A stretch of 64,000 nucleotides of DNA from positions 269,353 through 333,352 of the forward strand of contig JACFMQ010000002.1 of the NCBI GenBank assembly GCA_019455325.1, given 5' to 3'. A program made the translations under genes and the position numbers. The notes beneath the pieces were generated by a model. That model was not told the origin of the DNA. It was given only the letters and a program-made list of their open reading frames with translations, and did not search any database. Shown piece by piece: positions 1 to 9,136 of this stretch; positions within the stretch are counted from its first letter, which is position 1, and every line of letters begins with the position of its first letter. This stretch comes from Rhodocyclaceae bacterium. GTDB lineage: Bacteria; Pseudomonadota; Gammaproteobacteria; Burkholderiales; Rhodocyclaceae.

Positions 1-438
1 GCGTGGCGGCGCCGGCCGGCGCCGCTGGGCTGGATGATCGAGGCCCGGCGCCATCTCGACGGCGCCGCCGCCGTCTGGCCCATGCTCGCCGAACTCGCCT
101 GGATGGCGCCGCAACGCGCCCGCCGGCTACTGCCACGCTTGGCGGATGATCGGCTGGCAAGCCTCCTGCGCCGCTTCGACAGCGAATTCGCGGGCAGCGA
201 CGGGCCAGACGGCTTTTCCCTGTTCCCGGCCTGGCTGCTGGTCGAAGACGGCAGCTTCGCCGCGCCCCTCAAGTCCGCCGAACAAGGCCGCGGTACCGGA
301 CCGGAGCGCTGCGCGCGCCTTGTCGTCACGCTGCTCGGCCTGGAACGCCAAGGGCGCCATGACGAGCTGATCGAGAGTCGGCGCCGCTTGCGCGATCTCG
401 ACGGCGCGTTGTTCGAGTGGTACATGCGGAGCCGCTGA
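1..438 (+). CDS. 3' end of an unidentified gene upstream of the Wadjet operon (partial)
   Basis: The reading frame is open from the first base, so the true start lies outside the window; an internal ATG at 34 would give 134 residues. The visible part is rich in Leu, Ala and Arg and looks helical, with no signal peptide, membrane segment or motif I recognise. It stops three bases before the ATG of jetA, so it is probably in the same transcript and may be translationally coupled to it. I cannot name a family. It could be an extra component or regulator of the defence operon, or just the last gene of a neighbouring unit. Confidence 0.6.
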   Translation, partial: AWRRRPAPLGWMIEARRHLDGAAAVWPMLAELAWMAPQRARRLLPRLADDRLASLLRRFDSEFAGSDGPDGFSLFPAWLLVEDGSFAAPLKSAEQGRGTGPERCARLVVTLLGLERQGRHDELIESRRRLRDLDGALFEWYMRSR

Positions 439-441
439 GCC

Positions 442-1941
442 ATGGAGCCGAGCCAGAGCGAACTCTTCCGTCACGTCAATGCCGACAAGGCCGCGTTCTA
501 CCGCGCCGTCATGGAGGTCTTCGCCGCCGCCAAGCGCCAGTTCCGTCCCTATCTGCGGCCCGATGAGGTATTGCGCGAGGCCGTCTGGCCGGGCGTGCCG
601 CCGACGCTGGAGGAGGTCCGGGCGGCGCTGGCGCAACTGGTCGACTGGGGCAATCTGGAATCCCAGCCGGATACGGCGCGGGTGGCCAGCATCGACGATT
701 TCTACCTGGCCCGCTTCCTCTACCGGCTGTCCCATGGCGGCGAGGCCGTGGAGTCGGCGCTGGCGACCTTCGCCCAGGCGCTGCGGCGCCGGGGGGAATT
801 GCAGAGCGTGGCCCTGGAGGACATCCACGGCCGGCTCGACGCCTTGATCGCCCTGGGCGCCGAGCCGGCGCCGGACGCCGCCAAGGTGCACGAGGTGCTG
901 CGCGACCTGGTGCGGGTGTTCGAAGACCTGGCCGAGAACGCCCAGGCCTTCATGGCCGGCATCGTCCGCAGCGTCGAGATGCAGCAGGCCGACCCCGCCG
1001 CCGTGGTCGCGTTCAAGAAACGGCTGATCGATTATCTGGAACGCTTCATCGGCGATCTGGTGAGCCGTTCCGGCGCCATCGCCGGGCGCCTCGGGGCGCT
1101 CGACCTTCGCATCGACGCGCTGCTCTGGCAGGCGGCCAACCGCGAGGCGCGCGACATCGCGCCGGGCGACGTGGGCGAGCAGGCCGATGCGCTGCAAGCG
1201 CGCGTCCGGGCCTGGCGCGAACGCTGGCGCGGCCTGCGCCTGTGGTTCGTGGCCGACGGCCACGGCCCGGCCCAGGCCGAGGCCCTGCGCGCCAAGGCGC
1301 GGGCGGCGATCCCCCAGTTGCTGGCTGCCGTCGCCGCCGTCAACGAACGCCGCAGCGGCCGCAGCGACCGCTCGGCGGATTTCCGCGCGCTCGCCTGCTG
1401 GTTCGCGGAATGCGCCGACGACGGCCAGGCCCACCGCCTGGCACGAGCCGCCTTCGCCCTCAACCCGGCGCGCCACCTAGTGCTGCCGATCGATAGCGAT
1501 GTGCCGGCGACCACCGCCTGGGCCGAGGCGCCGGCGGTGCCGATCCATCCGCGCCTGCGGGAATACGGCTCGGCGATGGTGCGCGGGGCCGCGCCGCGGG
1601 TGCGGAACCGCGACGCCGAACGGGCGCTGCTGGCGCAGCAGGCCGCGGCCGAGCACCGCCAGGTGGAAGCGGCCCGCGCCCGGCTGGCCACCGGCGCAAT
1701 GACTCGCCTGTCGCAACTCGGCCCGCTCGATGCCCACGAATTCGATCTTTTCCTCGCCGTGCTCGGCGAGGCCCTGGCCGGCCAGTCGGCGCCGGACCAG
1801 GCCGTGGCGCGCACCACCGCAGACGGCCTGCTGCACGTCCGCCTCGAACCGCTGGCCGCAGATTCCCATGCCGCCATCGAGACGCCGCTGGGCGTCTTTT
1901 CCGGACGGGATCACCGCATCACCATCACGCCCGCCCCATGA
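442..1941 (+). CDS. jetA: Wadjet defence protein JetA (DUF2397/TIGR02677 family)
   Basis: 499 residues. The N-terminal half (FRHVNADKAAFYRAVM, then a winged-helix-like stretch ending in DDFYLARFLYRLS) is typical of the TIGR02677/DUF2397 family. That family is the kleisin-like subunit of one Wadjet variant. Wadjet complexes are SMC-like machines that recognise and cleave circular plasmid DNA; JetA bridges the JetC ATPase heads. This assignment comes from family knowledge and gene order. The stop codon overlaps the ATG of jetB in an ATGA, so the two are co-translated. The set DUF2397-DUF2398-SMC-DUF2399 matches what I know as the type II Wadjet arrangement. Confidence 0.9.
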   Translation: MEPSQSELFRHVNADKAAFYRAVMEVFAAAKRQFRPYLRPDEVLREAVWPGVPPTLEEVRAALAQLVDWGNLESQPDTARVASIDDFYLARFLYRLSHGGEAVESALATFAQALRRRGELQSVALEDIHGRLDALIALGAEPAPDAAKVHEVLRDLVRVFEDLAENAQAFMAGIVRSVEMQQADPAAVVAFKKRLIDYLERFIGDLVSRSGAIAGRLGALDLRIDALLWQAANREARDIAPGDVGEQADALQARVRAWRERWRGLRLWFVADGHGPAQAEALRAKARAAIPQLLAAVAAVNERRSGRSDRSADFRALACWFAECADDGQAHRLARAAFALNPARHLVLPIDSDVPATTAWAEAPAVPIHPRLREYGSAMVRGAAPRVRNRDAERALLAQQAAAEHRQVEAARARLATGAMTRLSQLGPLDAHEFDLFLAVLGEALAGQSAPDQAVARTTADGLLHVRLEPLAADSHAAIETPLGVFSGRDHRITITPAP

Positions 1942-3188
1942 CGGTTCAACCCCGCTTCGACAGCCGCGCCATTGGCGACCGCCAGAGCCAGCATCGCCAG
2001 GAAGAATACCGGGGCGCCGTGCGCGCGCTGTTGATGCGCCCGCTGATGACCAGCGACCATCCCGAATTCGCCGCCGTGCGCCGCCATGCCGATCAACTGC
2101 GCATCTGGTTCGCCCGCGAGACCGGCTGGCCGCTGGTCATCGAGCGCGATTGCGCCCGTCTCTACAAGCGGCCGGCCGACCTGGCCGACGCCAGCCGCGG
2201 CCTGCCCGGCTTCGACCGCCGCCGCTACGTGCTGCTGTGTCTGGCCGCCGCCGTGCTGGAGCGCGCCGATCCCCAGATCACCCTGCGCGTGCTCGGCGAC
2301 CGCCTGCTGGTCCTGGCCGGCGACCCGGCGCTGGCCGCGCGCGGCTTCGCCTTCGGGCTGGAGAACGCCCACGAGCGCCGCGAACTGGTCGCCGTCTGCC
2401 GCGCCCTGCTCGACTGGGGCGTCGTCGCCCGCGTCGCCGGCGACGAGGATGCCTATGTGCTCGGCCATGCCGGCGACGCGCTCTACGACATCCAGCGGCG
2501 CGTGCTCGCCGGCCTGCTCGCCGCCGTGCGCGGACCGTCCACCTGGGCGGAGGAAGACGCGCCGCCCGACCTCGAACGGCGCATCAAAGCCCTCGTCGCC
2601 GAGCATCAGCCGGAAAGCGAGGAAGGCCGGCGCACGGCCCTGCGCCATCAGTTGTCGCGCCGCCTGCTCGACGACCCGATGATCTACTTCGACGAACTCG
2701 ATGCCGACAACCGCGCCTACCTGCTGAACCAGCGCGGCCCGATGGCGGCGCGCCTGGCCGAGGACGGCGGCCTGGTCGCCGAGCAGCGCGCCGAAGGCGT
2801 GGCGCTGGTGGACGAAACGGGTACCCTGACGGACGTGTCGCTGCCGGCCGAGGGCACCGAATCCCACGTCACGCTGCTGGTGGCGGAATTCCTCGCCGGC
2901 CGCCGGGGCGCGGACGGCGATGCCGGCATTGCGGAAAACGACGTCGCCGCCTTCATCCGAGAAGCGACGGCACGCTACGGACGCTACTGGCGCAAATCGG
3001 CCCGGGAACCCGGCGGCGAACGGGAACTCGCCGAAGCCGCCCTGGGCCGGCTGGTCATGTTGCGCCTGGTCGAGCGGCAGGCGGGCAGGGTGCGGCCCCT
3101 GCCCGCGCTGGCCCGGGTCGCCCTGGGCAAGACGACCGTGAGAACGCCGGGCGGCAACGAAACGCTGCCGCCGGACTTGCTGCCATGA
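1938..3188 (+). CDS. jetB: Wadjet defence protein JetB (DUF2398/TIGR02678 family)
   Basis: 416 residues, close to the usual size of TIGR02678/DUF2398 proteins. Recognisable stretches are the N-terminal HRQEEYRGAVRALLMRPLM, GFDRRRYVLLCLAAAVLER and LLDDPMIYFDELDADNRAYL. In Wadjet, JetB is the small winged-helix (KITE-like) partner that binds the kleisin JetA. It overlaps jetA and jetC by four bases each (ATGA at 1938 and 3185), the tight packing expected of subunits of one complex. The role is inferred from family and context; there is no enzymatic motif to check. Confidence 0.9.
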   Translation: MTVQPRFDSRAIGDRQSQHRQEEYRGAVRALLMRPLMTSDHPEFAAVRRHADQLRIWFARETGWPLVIERDCARLYKRPADLADASRGLPGFDRRRYVLLCLAAAVLERADPQITLRVLGDRLLVLAGDPALAARGFAFGLENAHERRELVAVCRALLDWGVVARVAGDEDAYVLGHAGDALYDIQRRVLAGLLAAVRGPSTWAEEDAPPDLERRIKALVAEHQPESEEGRRTALRHQLSRRLLDDPMIYFDELDADNRAYLLNQRGPMAARLAEDGGLVAEQRAEGVALVDETGTLTDVSLPAEGTESHVTLLVAEFLAGRRGADGDAGIAENDVAAFIREATARYGRYWRKSAREPGGERELAEAALGRLVMLRLVERQAGRVRPLPALARVALGKTTVRTPGGNETLPPDLLP

Positions 3189-6100
3189 GCGAGCCTCTCC
3201 TGCCGCAACCGACCCGTGCCCGCTGGCAGCCCCTGCGCCTGGGGCTGGTCGATCTGTACCACTACGACAGCGAGGAATTCCGCTTCCACGACGGTCATCT
3301 CCTGCTGCGCGGCAACAACGGCACCGGCAAGTCCAAGGTGCTGTCCCTGACGCTGCCTTTCCTGCTCGATGCCCAGATCAAACCCTCGCGCATCGAGCCC
3401 GACGGCGATCCGGGCAAGAAGATGGCCTGGAACCTGCTGATGGGCAAGCACGAACGGCGCATCGGCTACGCCTGGGTGGAGTTCGGCCGCCGCGGCGAGG
3501 ACGGCCGCGCCCGTTTCGTCACTCTCGGCAGCGGCCTGTCGGCGGTGGCGGCGCGGCCCCAGGTGGATGCCTGGTATTTCGTCGCCGACGACGCCCGCAT
3601 CGGCGAGGCGTTCTGGCTCACCAGTCCCGGCGGTGTGGCCCACAACCGGGACCGCCTGCAGGAGGCCCTCGGCGGCCAGGGCCAGGTCTTCCCCAATGCG
3701 GAAAGCTACCGGCGGGCGGTGGACGAGCGGCTGTTCCGGCTCGGCGCCATCCGCTACGGCGCGCTGATGGACACCCTGATCCAGTTGCGCCAGCCCCAAT
3801 TGTCCAAGCGCCCGGACGAGGCCAATCTCTCCGAAGCCCTCACCGAGGCCCTGCCGCCCCTGCCTGCCGAACTGCTCGGCGATGTCGCCGACGCCTTCAA
3901 CCAGCTTGAGGAATACCGCCAGGAACTGGAAAGTTTCGAGGCCCTGGCCAAGGCCGTCGGCGTCTTCAACCTGCGCTACCGCGCCTATGCCGGCGTCAAG
4001 GCACGGCGCGAGGCGGGCCGCTTGCGCGCGGCCCAGACCGAGTTCGACAAGGCCAGCCAGGAGCTCAACGGGACACGGGAAACTCTGAAGGCGGCCCAGG
4101 CAGAGGAAGCGCGGCGTCAGGAGCGTCGGGGCGAACTGGACAGCGGCCTGCGGCAGGTGCGCGCCCGTCTCGAAGCCTTGCGCGACGACCCGGCCATGGG
4201 CGAGGCCAAACGGCTGGACGAGGCCAAGCGCCAGACCGAGCAGGCGAGCAAGGATGCGGCGGAAGCGGCGCGAACGTTGGCGGAGGCTTCCGGGCGGTTG
4301 TCGCGGGAACGTGCCGCGCTCCGGCAGTGCGAGCAGCGCGCCGCCGAGGCGGCACGGGCGCTGGCCGAGGCCCATGCGGCGGTCACTGAGGCGGCGGAAA
4401 CCTGCGGTATCGCCGCCGATGTCGCGCAGGAAGCGGCGCTCGGCGAGGCGGAAACCTTGTCCGCCCTCGACAACCGCGCCTGGCAGGCCGCGCGGCAGCG
4501 TTTGCAGGACGCCTACGCCCGGCGGCGCGGACAGATCGACCTGATGCGGCAGCGGCTGCGCGCGGCAGAAGAAGCCGGCCACCAGCGGCAGACGGCCCAG
4601 GCGCAGCGCGACGAGCGTGCCGACGCCTGCGAGGATGCCGCCGCCCGCCGCCTGGAGGCGGACGCCGCCGTGGAACGGGAGGGCGGCCGGCTCGTCGACG
4701 CCTGGCAGCGGCATGTCGACGGCCTCGAACAACTGCGGCCGGCACGGCTCGATGCCGCGCTCGACGCCCTGGCCGCCTGGGTCGCCGACCTGGCCGGCGA
4801 CAACCCGGCGCGGGCCGCCCTGCACGAAGCCCAGCACCTCGCCAGCGAACGCTTCGCCCGCCGGGCCGCGGCCATCGGCCAGCACGAGAAGAACCTGCGC
4901 GAGGAGGAGGACGCGCTGTCCCTCGAACGCCGGCGTCTCGAAGGCGGAGAGGACGCGCTGCCTCCCGCGCCCTACCACCGCGCTGCCAACGGGCGCCGCG
5001 ACCGGCCGGGAGCGCCCCTGTGGCAGTTGCTGGAATTCCGCGACACCCTGGCCGACGGACAGCGCGCCGGACTGGAGGCGGCGCTGGAAGCGAGCGGCCT
5101 GCTCGACGCCTGGGTGATGCCCGACGGCCGGCTGCTGGCCGCCGACGGCGCCGCACCCTGGCACGACACGCTGCTCGTCGCCCGCGGCCGCCAGGCCGCA
5201 TCCGCCGCAAACTGGCTGCGGCCCGCGGAAAACGCCGCGGTCGCCGCGCCGGTGGTGCGCGCCCTGCTGGAGAGCATCGCCTGCGGCGAGACCGAAGCGG
5301 TGGAGGTGGCGGAGGCGGAAGCCTGGATCGCCGCCGACGGGCGCTTCCGCGTCGGCCCGCTGGCCGGCGCCTGGAGCAAGCCTGCCGCGGTCTACATCGG
5401 CTTCGCGGCGCGGGCCGCGGCGCGGCGACAACGCCTGGCGGAAATCGCCCGCCGCCTGGGTGAAATCGGCGCGGCGCTGGGCATCGTCGCTCAGGAAAAG
5501 GAAAAGCTCGAACAGCAGCGCCGGCAAGCGGCGCGGGAATGGAACGACGCGCCGGGCGACGACGGCCTGCGCGCCGCCCATCTCGCGGCGGCGGCCCATG
5601 CCCGCGCCTATGCAACGGCCGAGGCCGCATTGCGCCAGGCGGACGACCGGCTGGCCGAGGCCGGCCGGCGTTGGGACAACGCCCGCGCCCGGCTTGCCGC
5701 GGATGGGGCGGACCTGCGCCTGCCCGTCGCAGGGGCGGCCCTCGACGCGGTGGAAACGCACTTGCGCGGCTTCCACGACGGCTTGCAGCGCCTGTTCCTG
5801 GCGGCCCAGGACGTGCGCCATGCCCTGCCGGAACTGGCGGCGCAGCGCGGACGCGAGGCCGAGGCCGGGGCCGAGGAGGCGCGTTGCCAGGCGCAGTCCT
5901 CGGAGAAGCAGGCCCGCGCCGAAGAGGCCCAGGCCCGCTGGCAGGCGCTGTTCGACAGCGTCGGCGTGCAGGTCGAGGAAATCCAACGGCGCCTTGAGGC
6001 GGCGCGCTTGGCGGTCGCGCAGGGCGAGACCGACCTGAAAAACGCCGAAGAGAAATTGCGCGCCGCCATCTCGGCACGTGCTCGCGCCGAGCAGAAGGAA

Positions 6101-7309
6101 GCGGATTCGGCGGGCACGCTGGAAGAACGGCGCGCCAGCCGCCAGGCGGCGGTGGCCGGCCTGCAAGGCTTCGCCGCCAGCGGCCTGCTGGCCGTGGCGC
6201 TGCCGGAAGTCGAATGCCCCGATCCCGCCGCGCCCTGGACCATTGAGCCGGCGCTGACCCTGGCGCGCCGCGCCGAACAGGCCCTGGCCGGCGTGCCAGC
6301 CGGTGACGAGGCATGGAACCGCATCCAGAACCGCATCTCCGAGGATTTCAACGAACTGCTGCGCAGCCTCGGCGCCCTCGGTCACCAGGCCCATGCGGGC
6401 ACCAGCGACTACGGCCTGGTGGTCAGCGTGATCTACCGCAACCGCCCCGAGCGCCCGGACCGTCTGGAGGCGATCCTGGCGGAAGAGATCGCCCAACGCC
6501 GCGAACTGCTCACCGCCAACGAACGCAGACTGCTGGAAGACCACTTGCAGGCCGAGGTCGCCAGCGTCATCCAGCGCCTGTTGCAGGAGGCGGATCGCCG
6601 CGTGGCCGACATCAACGCCGAACTCGACCGGCGTCCGACCTCGACCGGCGTGCGCTTCCGCCTGGTCTGGGAGGCATTGCCCGAAAACAGCGGCGATGCG
6701 CCGATAGGACTCGCGGCAGCGCGCCGCAAGCTCCTCAACACCAGCGCCGACGCCTGGTCGGCGGAAGATCGGCGAATCGTCGGCGATATGCTGCAAAGCC
6801 GGATCGCCGCCGAGCGGACGCGGGCCGACAGCGGCGGCAGCCTGCTCGAACAACTCGCCCGCGCCCTCGACTACCGCCGCTGGCACCGCTTCCGCGTCGA
6901 ACGCTGGCAGGGCGGCCAGTGGGGCCGGCTGTCGGGGCCGGCCTCCAGCGGCGAGCGCGCCCTCGGCCTCACCGTGCCGCTGTTCGCGGCCGTCGCCAGC
7001 CATTACGGCCACGTCGGCGCCGACCGCCACGGCGCGCCGCGCCTGGTGCTGCTGGACGAAGCCTTCGCCGGCATCGACCGCGAGGCCCGCGCCCATTGCA
7101 TGGCGCTGATCCGCGAATTCGACCTCGACTTCGTCATGACCAGCGAAAGCGAATGGGGCTGCTACGCCGGACTGCCCGGCGTGTCGATCTGCCACCTGCT
7201 GCGCCGCGAAGGCATCGACGCCGTGCATGTCTCGCGCTGGACCTGGGACGGCCGCGCGCGCCGCGAAGCGCCCGATCCGAGGCAGCGCTTCCCGGCGGCG
7301 GCGCCATGA
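3185..7309 (+). CDS. jetC: Wadjet SMC-like ATPase JetC (TIGR02680 family)
   Basis: 1,374 residues. A Walker A motif (GNNGTGKSK) lies near residues 43-51. A very long Ala/Glu/Arg-rich coiled-coil region fills about residues 260-1000. A signature-like SSGERAL lies near residue 1247 and a Walker B (RLVLLDEAFAGID) near 1286. This is the layout of an SMC/Rad50-type ATPase of the TIGR02680 family, the motor of Wadjet. The ATG at 3185 overlaps the jetB stop and is followed by the conserved WQPLRLGLVDLYHYDSEEF. Earlier in-frame ATGs lie inside jetA and jetB and were rejected. All ATPase motifs look intact, so the motor is predicted to be active. Confidence 0.93.
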   Translation: MSEPLLPQPTRARWQPLRLGLVDLYHYDSEEFRFHDGHLLLRGNNGTGKSKVLSLTLPFLLDAQIKPSRIEPDGDPGKKMAWNLLMGKHERRIGYAWVEFGRRGEDGRARFVTLGSGLSAVAARPQVDAWYFVADDARIGEAFWLTSPGGVAHNRDRLQEALGGQGQVFPNAESYRRAVDERLFRLGAIRYGALMDTLIQLRQPQLSKRPDEANLSEALTEALPPLPAELLGDVADAFNQLEEYRQELESFEALAKAVGVFNLRYRAYAGVKARREAGRLRAAQTEFDKASQELNGTRETLKAAQAEEARRQERRGELDSGLRQVRARLEALRDDPAMGEAKRLDEAKRQTEQASKDAAEAARTLAEASGRLSRERAALRQCEQRAAEAARALAEAHAAVTEAAETCGIAADVAQEAALGEAETLSALDNRAWQAARQRLQDAYARRRGQIDLMRQRLRAAEEAGHQRQTAQAQRDERADACEDAAARRLEADAAVEREGGRLVDAWQRHVDGLEQLRPARLDAALDALAAWVADLAGDNPARAALHEAQHLASERFARRAAAIGQHEKNLREEEDALSLERRRLEGGEDALPPAPYHRAANGRRDRPGAPLWQLLEFRDTLADGQRAGLEAALEASGLLDAWVMPDGRLLAADGAAPWHDTLLVARGRQAASAANWLRPAENAAVAAPVVRALLESIACGETEAVEVAEAEAWIAADGRFRVGPLAGAWSKPAAVYIGFAARAAARRQRLAEIARRLGEIGAALGIVAQEKEKLEQQRRQAAREWNDAPGDDGLRAAHLAAAAHARAYATAEAALRQADDRLAEAGRRWDNARARLAADGADLRLPVAGAALDAVETHLRGFHDGLQRLFLAAQDVRHALPELAAQRGREAEAGAEEARCQAQSSEKQARAEEAQARWQALFDSVGVQVEEIQRRLEAARLAVAQGETDLKNAEEKLRAAISARARAEQKEADSAGTLEERRASRQAAVAGLQGFAASGLLAVALPEVECPDPAAPWTIEPALTLARRAEQALAGVPAGDEAWNRIQNRISEDFNELLRSLGALGHQAHAGTSDYGLVVSVIYRNRPERPDRLEAILAEEIAQRRELLTANERRLLEDHLQAEVASVIQRLLQEADRRVADINAELDRRPTSTGVRFRLVWEALPENSGDAPIGLAAARRKLLNTSADAWSAEDRRIVGDMLQSRIAAERTRADSGGSLLEQLARALDYRRWHRFRVERWQGGQWGRLSGPASSGERALGLTVPLFAAVASHYGHVGADRHGAPRLVLLDEAFAGIDREARAHCMALIREFDLDFVMTSESEWGCYAGLPGVSICHLLRREGIDAVHVSRWTWDGRARREAPDPRQRFPAAAP

Positions 7310-8517
7310 GCCAAAGGGGCCAGGGGAACGATCCGCGTCTCCAGCGGCTGCTGGGCGGAACCGCGCTGGCAGACCTGCGCCGCCGCCTGCGGCAGCGTTT
7401 CGAGCGCGGCGCCACGGGCAGCTTCCGCCTGGACCGCCTGACCGAGACCGAGCGGGAAGCCTTGTCCGGCATGCTCGGACGGCGCCTCCGGCGCGCCGCT
7501 TCCATGACCCTCGACTGCGCGGAACTCGATGCCGCCCTCGCCCGCGCCGGCCTCGCCGCCTCCCTGCGCGAAGCCCTGGAGCAGCTCGACGGTCCCATCG
7601 CGGACAAGGCCGCCGCGCGGACCGCCTTGCTGGCGCGCTGGGGTACGGCGGTGCAGGCCTGCGCCGAGCCGCGCCTGGCCGCCTGGCTCGCCGTCCCGCC
7701 GGCGCCGACTTTGCTCCGGCGCCTGGCACGCGATCCTGACACGGCCGCGCAGTTGCTGGCGGCCGCCGGCGCCGTATTGCGCGCCTTGCCCGCCGCCGGC
7801 ACCCCGCGCTCGCAACTGGCGGCGCAGACGCTCGGCGACGCCCACGGGCTGGATGCCGGCCGTCCGGTCGCCACGCTCGTGCTGGCGGTGCTGCGCGCGC
7901 TGAAACGGGAAGCCGACGAGGAATCCGGCGCCGACGATGCGCGCGACCTCTGGGCCGCCGCCGGCGTGCTGGTCAACGAACTGGCGCGACCGGCGCTGTG
8001 CCTGAACCTGCCGGCACACGACGGCCCATGCGCCGCGGGCGAGCCCGCCTACCTTTCCCTGCGCCTGCTGCTGCGCGCGCCGCCGCCCTGGCAAGTGGAG
8101 GGCCGCGAAGTCCATATCTGCGAGAACCCCAACCTGGTGGCCATCGTCGCCGACGGCCTCGGCGAACGCGCCGCGCCCCTCGTCTGCACCGACGGCATGC
8201 CGGCTGCCGCGCAGCGCGCCTTGCTGCGGCAATTGGCGCAGGCGGGAGCCCGGCTCCGCTACCACGGCGATTTCGACTGGCCGGGCCTGGCCATCGGCAA
8301 CCACGTGATGCGCACCTACGGCGCCGGTCCCTGGCGTTTCGGGGCGGCCGACTACGCAGCGGCGGTCCGGAACGCCGCCACCCGCGGCCGGCCGCTGGGC
8401 GCGAGCGCAGTGGAGGCGGAATGGGACGGAGAACTGGCCCCGGTCATGCGCGATTGCGGCCAGGCAGTGGACGAGGAAGCCGTCGCCGCAACCTTGATGG
8501 CGGATCTGGGCGATTGA
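7306..8517 (+). CDS. jetD: Wadjet nuclease subunit JetD (DUF2399/TIGR02679, Toprim-like)
   Basis: 403 residues. The C-terminal half has the Toprim signature: the acidic residue in HICENPNLVAIVADGLG (Glu near 273) and the DxD of YHGDFDWPG (Asp near 322 and 324). In Wadjet the JetD dimer cuts the plasmid DNA extruded by the JetABC motor. The N-terminal part contains DAALARAGLAASLREALEQLDGP, typical of TIGR02679. The ATG overlaps the jetC stop by four bases. The apparent metal-binding residues are present, so the nuclease is likely functional. It is the last gene of the operon; a G+C-rich inverted repeat follows directly. Confidence 0.92.
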   Translation: MSQRGQGNDPRLQRLLGGTALADLRRRLRQRFERGATGSFRLDRLTETEREALSGMLGRRLRRAASMTLDCAELDAALARAGLAASLREALEQLDGPIADKAAARTALLARWGTAVQACAEPRLAAWLAVPPAPTLLRRLARDPDTAAQLLAAAGAVLRALPAAGTPRSQLAAQTLGDAHGLDAGRPVATLVLAVLRALKREADEESGADDARDLWAAAGVLVNELARPALCLNLPAHDGPCAAGEPAYLSLRLLLRAPPPWQVEGREVHICENPNLVAIVADGLGERAAPLVCTDGMPAAAQRALLRQLAQAGARLRYHGDFDWPGLAIGNHVMRTYGAGPWRFGAADYAAAVRNAATRGRPLGASAVEAEWDGELAPVMRDCGQAVDEEAVAATLMADLGD

Positions 8518-8567: not shown

Positions 8568-8700
8568 TACGTCAGGCAAGACGACGGAGACGCCGCCACC
8601 GCCCTGCCCTCGTCAAATATCCGGGTTTGCAAGCTATTGATCCGGCCCGAAAAATTCATCATGCGGCATGGCGGACATGGGGATCGCGAAAGTAGGCCAT

Positions 8701-8967
8701 GACGAGCGTATTGCCGGTCTCGGGGTCTTTGAACCGAACACGGCGCAGATGGATGGGGTAATCCTGCTTCGTGTAGAAGCCGTCGAGCACAACGGTCTGA
8801 TCGCAGATGATTCCGACCGAGCGATCGGTCTGCGCCGAATAGACGCGATGGAAGTCCATGTTCGACTTGGCCCGCGTGACGAAGAACGCACCGGCCAGAT
8901 GCAGAACGTAGGGGCGAGCGAAATCGACGTAGCCGCGATCCATGACGTAGATGGCGCCAGGCTCGGG
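8701..8967 (-). pseudogene. Remnant of an IS4-family transposase
   Basis: The minus strand encodes PEPGAIYVMDRGYVDF, then HLAGAFFVTRAKSN, ICDQTVVLDGFYTKQDYP and LRRVRFKDPETG. These are the central catalytic-domain blocks of IS4/IS5-type DDE transposases, including the Asp of the MDRGYVDF block. Homology seems to start abruptly at PEPG and stop after ETGNTLV; the rest of the 149-codon open frame (8659-9108) does not resemble a transposase. The C-terminal Glu-containing block is missing. This is therefore a decayed internal fragment. No terminal inverted repeats or target duplications could be recognised. It marks the boundary between the defence operon and the iron locus. Confidence 0.8.
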
Positions 8968-9136
8968 TATGGTCCGGTAACCTGATGGCGCCGCACATAC
9001 ATCGGGATATTGAGGCGCCTCGGCCACGACGAGGAGTGGGAACAGCCGGGCTGGCTGGGCGGTTGTCGCCGTTTCATCCGTGGGGAGAAGCGCTATCGCG
9101 TCGTCCAACCAGCGCCGACTGTCAATGTCCCCCGTG

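Follow-up and report, generated by a model that had tools for sequence, protein, structure and literature searches.

Organisation and family assignment of the operon

The 64,000-nucleotide stretch of DNA analysed here, referred to as the window, covers positions 269,353 to 333,352 of contig JACFMQ010000002.1 of a Rhodocyclaceae bacterium (G000:C24:269353-333352 in our genome set). It carries near its start the four genes jetABCD, which by their sequence are a Wadjet system of type II, a known kind of system, preceded by an additional gene that was named g5. The reading frames of jetA (442..1941), jetB (1938..3188), jetC (3185..7309) and jetD (7306..8517) are uninterrupted and lie on the forward strand between positions 442 and 8517, with an ATGA overlap at each of the three junctions. 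JetC is an ATPase of the structural maintenance of chromosomes (SMC) kind with Walker A, signature and Walker B motifs, and JetD is a predicted Toprim nuclease; from what is known of the family, we take JetA to be the kleisin-like and JetB the KITE-like subunit. Wadjet was reportedly defined in a 2018 paper, and its types I and II have the same four subunit roles.

The four proteins were assigned by comparison with NCBIfam, PADLOC and Pfam profile models. JetA returned 557 bits against TIGR02677 (curated cut-off 165.85), JetB 413.8 bits against TIGR02678 (124.65), JetC 1468.1 bits against TIGR02680 (462.85) and JetD 408.9 bits against TIGR02679 (196), scores that amount to 2 to more than 3 times the curated NCBIfam cut-offs. 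The top PADLOC models were those of type II, namely JetA2 (646.9 bits), JetB2 (473.2 bits), JetC2 and JetD2, and the Pfam domains found were DUF2397 in JetA, DUF2398 in JetB, SbcC_Walker_B in JetC and DUF3323 with DUF2399 in JetD. The profile search gave a single TIGR02680 match in the source genome. A preliminary description of the locus had placed four genes with ATGA overlaps at 442..8517, had assigned them to the DUF2397-DUF2398-SMC ATPase-DUF2399 set and had named the models TIGR02677-TIGR02680 as a check; its coordinates, gene order and reading frames proved correct, and the profile scores agree with its assignment. The window operon shares with Wadjet type II the four families, the A-B-C-D order, the overlapping genes and the ATPase and Toprim-type motifs, whereas type I is made up of other protein families and the window JetC matches JetC1 models only over the C-terminal ~70-100 residues.

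Conserved motifs of JetC and JetD

The motifs were compared in five type II loci, i.e., the window operon and those of genomes G136, G538, G563 and G085. The Walker A motif of JetC (GNNGTGKS, from residue 43) and its signature (SSGERALG, at residue 1254) are identical in all five loci, while the Walker B motif (LVLLDEAF, at residue 1287) is identical in four, with one V-to-M change outside the DE pair. In JetD, residues E273, D322 and D324, the latter two forming the DxD motif and all three presumably the Toprim catalytic set, are kept throughout, and none of the five loci differs in the CENP or GDFDW stretch. This alignment bore out the earlier statement that the nucleotide-binding motifs of JetC and the glutamate and DxD of JetD are intact. 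When the type II JetD profile was compared with that of type I (Wadjet type I/MksBEFG/EptABCD), only the DxD region aligned, GDFDWPG pairing with GDFDFAG (E 7.7e-5, probability 62%).

The gene g5 upstream of jetA

The preliminary description had also called the operon complete; the four-gene set is indeed intact, but an undescribed gene abutting its 5' end had been overlooked. This gene, g5, encodes 284 amino acids on the forward strand (L002:11937-12791) and starts 417 bases 5' of the window, whose edge cuts it, so that its 3' part occupies positions 1..438. Only 3 bases separate its stop codon from the jetA ATG. The g5 protein gave no match among the Pfam, NCBIfam and PADLOC models. Its structure model is all-helical, with a predicted local distance difference test (pLDDT) of 92.4 and a predicted template modelling score (pTM) of 0.87, and returned no fold match at E <= 0.001. 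The closest structural neighbours are largely tetratricopeptide repeat (TPR) proteins, with which g5 has the all-helical build in common, but the resemblance is weak and helical repeats match widely.

A GGAG motif lies 10 bases 5' of the jetA ATG, inside the end of g5, both in the window and in a Thiobacillus contig (L025/L144), and is, judging from the sequence, probably the jetA ribosome site. The layout suggests that g5 is probably the first gene of the operon, transcribed with jetA, and perhaps translationally coupled to it. What is new at this locus is the extra gene g5 only, the four-gene core being of an already known kind. No description of a gene like g5 beside Wadjet was found in the open-access papers searched; as subscription papers lay largely outside this search, the novelty of g5 is put forward with reserve.

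The Thiobacillus contig, which belongs to a metagenome-assembled genome (MAG; G938), shows that the g5-jetA junction is common to this genome and the window. There g5 is shrunk to a 53-codon frame that keeps the start and end of the gene and matches positions 1-28 and 266-288 of the g5 profile (E 3.2e-14). The frame is followed by 3 bases and then by a type II jetA whose product is 83% identical to the window JetA over 321 residues. The GGAG may explain why the end of g5 was retained; being found in a MAG, the remnant may also be an assembly fault. TIGR02680 had no match in the Thiobacillus genome (93% complete, 260 contigs) and the contig ends inside jetA, so the operon may be broken or unassembled there. 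For the same reasons, the remnant was rejected as proof of a working Wadjet without g5.

Genomic contexts of g5 relatives

A total of 346 g5 relatives were matched, of which 120 were listed, and contexts were read for a minority. To locate Jet genes near g5, tblastn was run with JetABCD of the window and with JetC and JetD of locus L005; type III or far-off type I Jet genes may be missed, the queries being limited to these proteins. Scanning a single genome of each species yielded 22 g5 loci, 17 of which we take, from their genera, to be betaproteobacterial. In the order sample, g5 occurred in 19 of the 399 genomes, and contexts were read for 14 of the 18 genomes other than that of the window, leaving out the weak matches in G218, G283, G485 and G556. 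A set of 15 further loci was also examined. These sets overlap, with L011, L012 and L006 reappearing as L099, L098 and L100, respectively; G503 is the L005 contig and L144 the L025 contig.

Locus L005, from a betaproteobacterial groundwater MAG, carries a type I operon that, like the window operon, abuts g5. The neighbours of g5 are JetA (PF18982), a DUF4194 protein, JetC1 (1388 bits) and JetD1 (434.6 bits), and g5 overlaps the 3' end of jetD by 37 bases. A different partner was found in six of the 22 loci (L007-L011 and L023), where g5, broken in L023, lies 9-12 bases 5' of a gene of the DUF1186/SEC-C kind. Four of these genes were read (L007:10876-13116, L009:3721-5982, L010:1615-3867 and L023:10237-12438); they encode proteins of ~750 amino acids with DUF1186, SEC-C and an antitoxin-like end resembling Xre_MbcA_ParS_C, the latter just below the Pfam cut-off in L010. 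From the arrangement of the sequences, this protein and the g5 relative form a probable two-gene unit. L150 also contains a tblastn match to the ~750-residue protein, in the vicinity of a distant relative of g5. The remaining 14 of the 22 loci have neither a Jet nor a DUF1186/SEC-C gene beside g5, many of their contigs being short (6-20 kb).

Distant and longer relatives were present in 19 of the 398 genomes of the phylum sample, the window's own included, and relatives of less than 60% identity occur on 23 plasmid records. In L113 and L151, distant relatives of ~400 amino acids lie directly 3' of an SNF2 helicase that carries a SWIM zinc finger, with a gap of ~20 bases in the former and an overlap in the latter. 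A phage origin of g5 found no support, as no match was found in 50,697 phage records and none of 110 pattern-matched viral-contig stretches encodes a relative. The two Wadjet-linked copies of g5 (window and L005) could not be placed in a clade of their own, the tree being unresolved where they fall; a single origin is possible.

Wadjet operons in other genomes

In the class sample three of 185 genomes, and in the order sample three of 399, had a TIGR02680 match above cut-off, the window genome being counted in both. Full-length JetC1 (>1300 bits) was found in six of 398 genomes and divergent matches of 127-176 bits, in pieces, in five more. Matches at E <= 0.001 of any kind occurred in 240 of the 398, and the many weak ones were taken for other SMC-like ATPases.

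The flanks of five other type II operons were inspected. In G136, an SNF2-family helicase frame (L110:4743-7196) stands in the place of g5 and overlaps jetA by ATGA; in G538, a 127-residue frame without a Pfam match lies 5' of jetA; in G085, nothing related to g5 was found 5' of jetA; and G563 offers hardly any flank, with fewer than 200 bases 5' of jetA before the contig end. The fifth operon is a full type II Wadjet on a 578-kb conjugative plasmid of Cupriavidus taiwanensis (NZ_CP016951.1), where no g5 was detected in 6.0 kb 5' of jetA or 7.7 kb 3' of jetD; the one match to g5 (13.6 bits, E 0.003) falls within a gene annotated as patatin-like, on the opposite strand. When the G136, G538, G563 and G085 loci and ten type I loci were scanned with the g5 profile, the scan recovered only the L005 gene, the L144 remnant and the window copy, the next best match having E 0.033. 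The same-genus genome G1089 has no match to TIGR02680 or to g5, which, though it is a single genome, fits joint gain or loss.

Proposed function of the operon and role of g5

We read the locus as an intact type II Wadjet operon, predicted to restrict small plasmids, with g5 abutting it upstream, and assign to this reading a probability of about 0.85. The preliminary description had expected the operon to block plasmid uptake in this strain; plasmid restriction is likely by analogy with the family. DNA loops would be extruded by JetABC, and once a small circular plasmid has been run through completely, JetD, the likely nuclease, would be switched on through the shape sensing expected of the family and would then cut the plasmid. 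The g5 protein might be an adaptor of the helical-repeat kind, optional to the complex and serving to tune or target it. For type I, the review PMC10586767 describes loop extrusion that is completed on small circles and followed by JetD cleavage; it also states that Wadjet research has mostly dealt with type I, types II and III awaiting characterisation. In Clostridium cellulovorans, deletion of a jetABCD system of unspecified type is reported to have led to a rise in conjugation of about five logs (PMC12287153).

SMC complexes occur in both chromosomal and plasmid-restriction roles, according to PMC10586767, and the window complex could have drifted to chromosome upkeep in the manner of MukBEF, losing plasmid restriction. 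However, the chromosome-serving MksBEF of P. aeruginosa is described there as having likely arisen through loss of JetD, whereas the window JetD is intact and keeps its conserved acidic residues, and we consider this drift very improbable.

A constant fifth Wadjet subunit was rejected as the role of g5: five other type II operons lack the gene, which is therefore not a core subunit; at best it would be an optional accessory, and perhaps it is a passenger. As a passenger, g5 would be a roaming gene with its own job, and Wadjet and g5 would each work independently; we give this about an even chance and hold it somewhat likelier than the role of optional adaptor. Several results weigh against a link between g5 and Wadjet. 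Beyond the five operons without g5, set against which the window has the extra gene and Thiobacillus only its two ends, most g5 loci have no adjoining Jet gene: Jet genes adjoin g5 in two of the 22 loci of the one-genome-per-species scan (L025 and L005), in one of the 14 loci of the order sample (G503) and in one of the 15 further loci (L144). Of the 11 type I operons that the order sample contains, one (G503) has g5 beside it, and g5 occurs in two of the 13 genomes that bear JetC (TIGR02680 over cut-off, or JetC1 of at least 127 bits) versus ~0.6 expected, which is not significant. Against the main reading as a whole stand the doubtful state of the Thiobacillus operon and the 0 sites returned by a simple promoter scan 5' of g5, a weak test. 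Favouring a passenger are the type II operons without g5, the many g5 loci away from Jet genes, the pairing with DUF1186/SEC-C genes and the relatives on plasmid records. Against it, g5 abuts two Wadjet types, at the 5' end of one operon (3-base gap) and at the 3' end of the other (overlap), and chance would, by a rough reckoning, place a given gene against a given operon in about one genome in 2000. Since g5 was chosen because it abuts the window operon, L005 alone counts as fully independent, and clustering in defence islands would further weaken the chance argument.

The tight junctions with operons of both types, II and I, together with the same g5-jetA junction in remnant form in Thiobacillus, are what an accessory subunit or regulator of Wadjet would leave, for example a helical-repeat adaptor that helps to load the complex on plasmids, a service akin to that of HEAT proteins in other SMC complexes. 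The confident all-helical model and its weak TPR-like resemblance agree with such a role, but the lack of a fold match and the wide matching of helical repeats blunt this argument, and the type II operons devoid of g5 speak against it; we propose it tentatively, as a possibility with rather less than an even chance. A bolder version, in which g5 founds an unnamed family of adaptors serving type II (at the 5' end) and type I (at the 3' end) operons of betaproteobacteria and tuning which circles are attacked, we regard as unlikely. In that version, g5 may belong to a set of interchangeable add-ons, comparable to the SNF2 helicase that precedes jetA in one type II operon.

The operon is one more clean example of type II Wadjet, a type that has seen few mechanistic studies. 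Should g5 act with Wadjet, accessory proteins beyond JetABCD would exist, and defence finders built on four genes would miss parts of such operons.

Surroundings of the window operon and of other Wadjet loci

The jet genes have a guanine-plus-cytosine content of 0.73-0.75 versus 0.70 for the window, a difference that is not telling, and a recent acquisition deduced from base composition was discarded. An empty site was not found in G1089, where the transporter upstream of the operon has no match and the matches to the downstream TonB receptor are partial, the best being 26% identical.

The gene guaA lies 5' of three Wadjet loci (L005, L025/L144 and L110), with at most a small gene pair between; one of these is of type I and two have type II genes, L025/L144 having jetA only. 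The occurrence of tadA 3' of the L110 operon suggests a guaA-tadA insertion hotspot; the window operon lies elsewhere. The idea that g5 resides at the guaA site was rejected, since guaA did not turn up in any of the other g5 loci tested, many of which are short. On the Cupriavidus plasmid (L194), the Wadjet genes are followed by pieces of a SWIM-type-like gene and then by SNF2 helicase pieces with an insertion sequence (IS) of the IS21 family between them. In the window, a remnant of an IS4-family transposase lies just 3' of jetD on the reverse strand (8659-9108), and over its residues 47-136 it shares 77% identity with a plasmid-borne transposase annotated as IS4.

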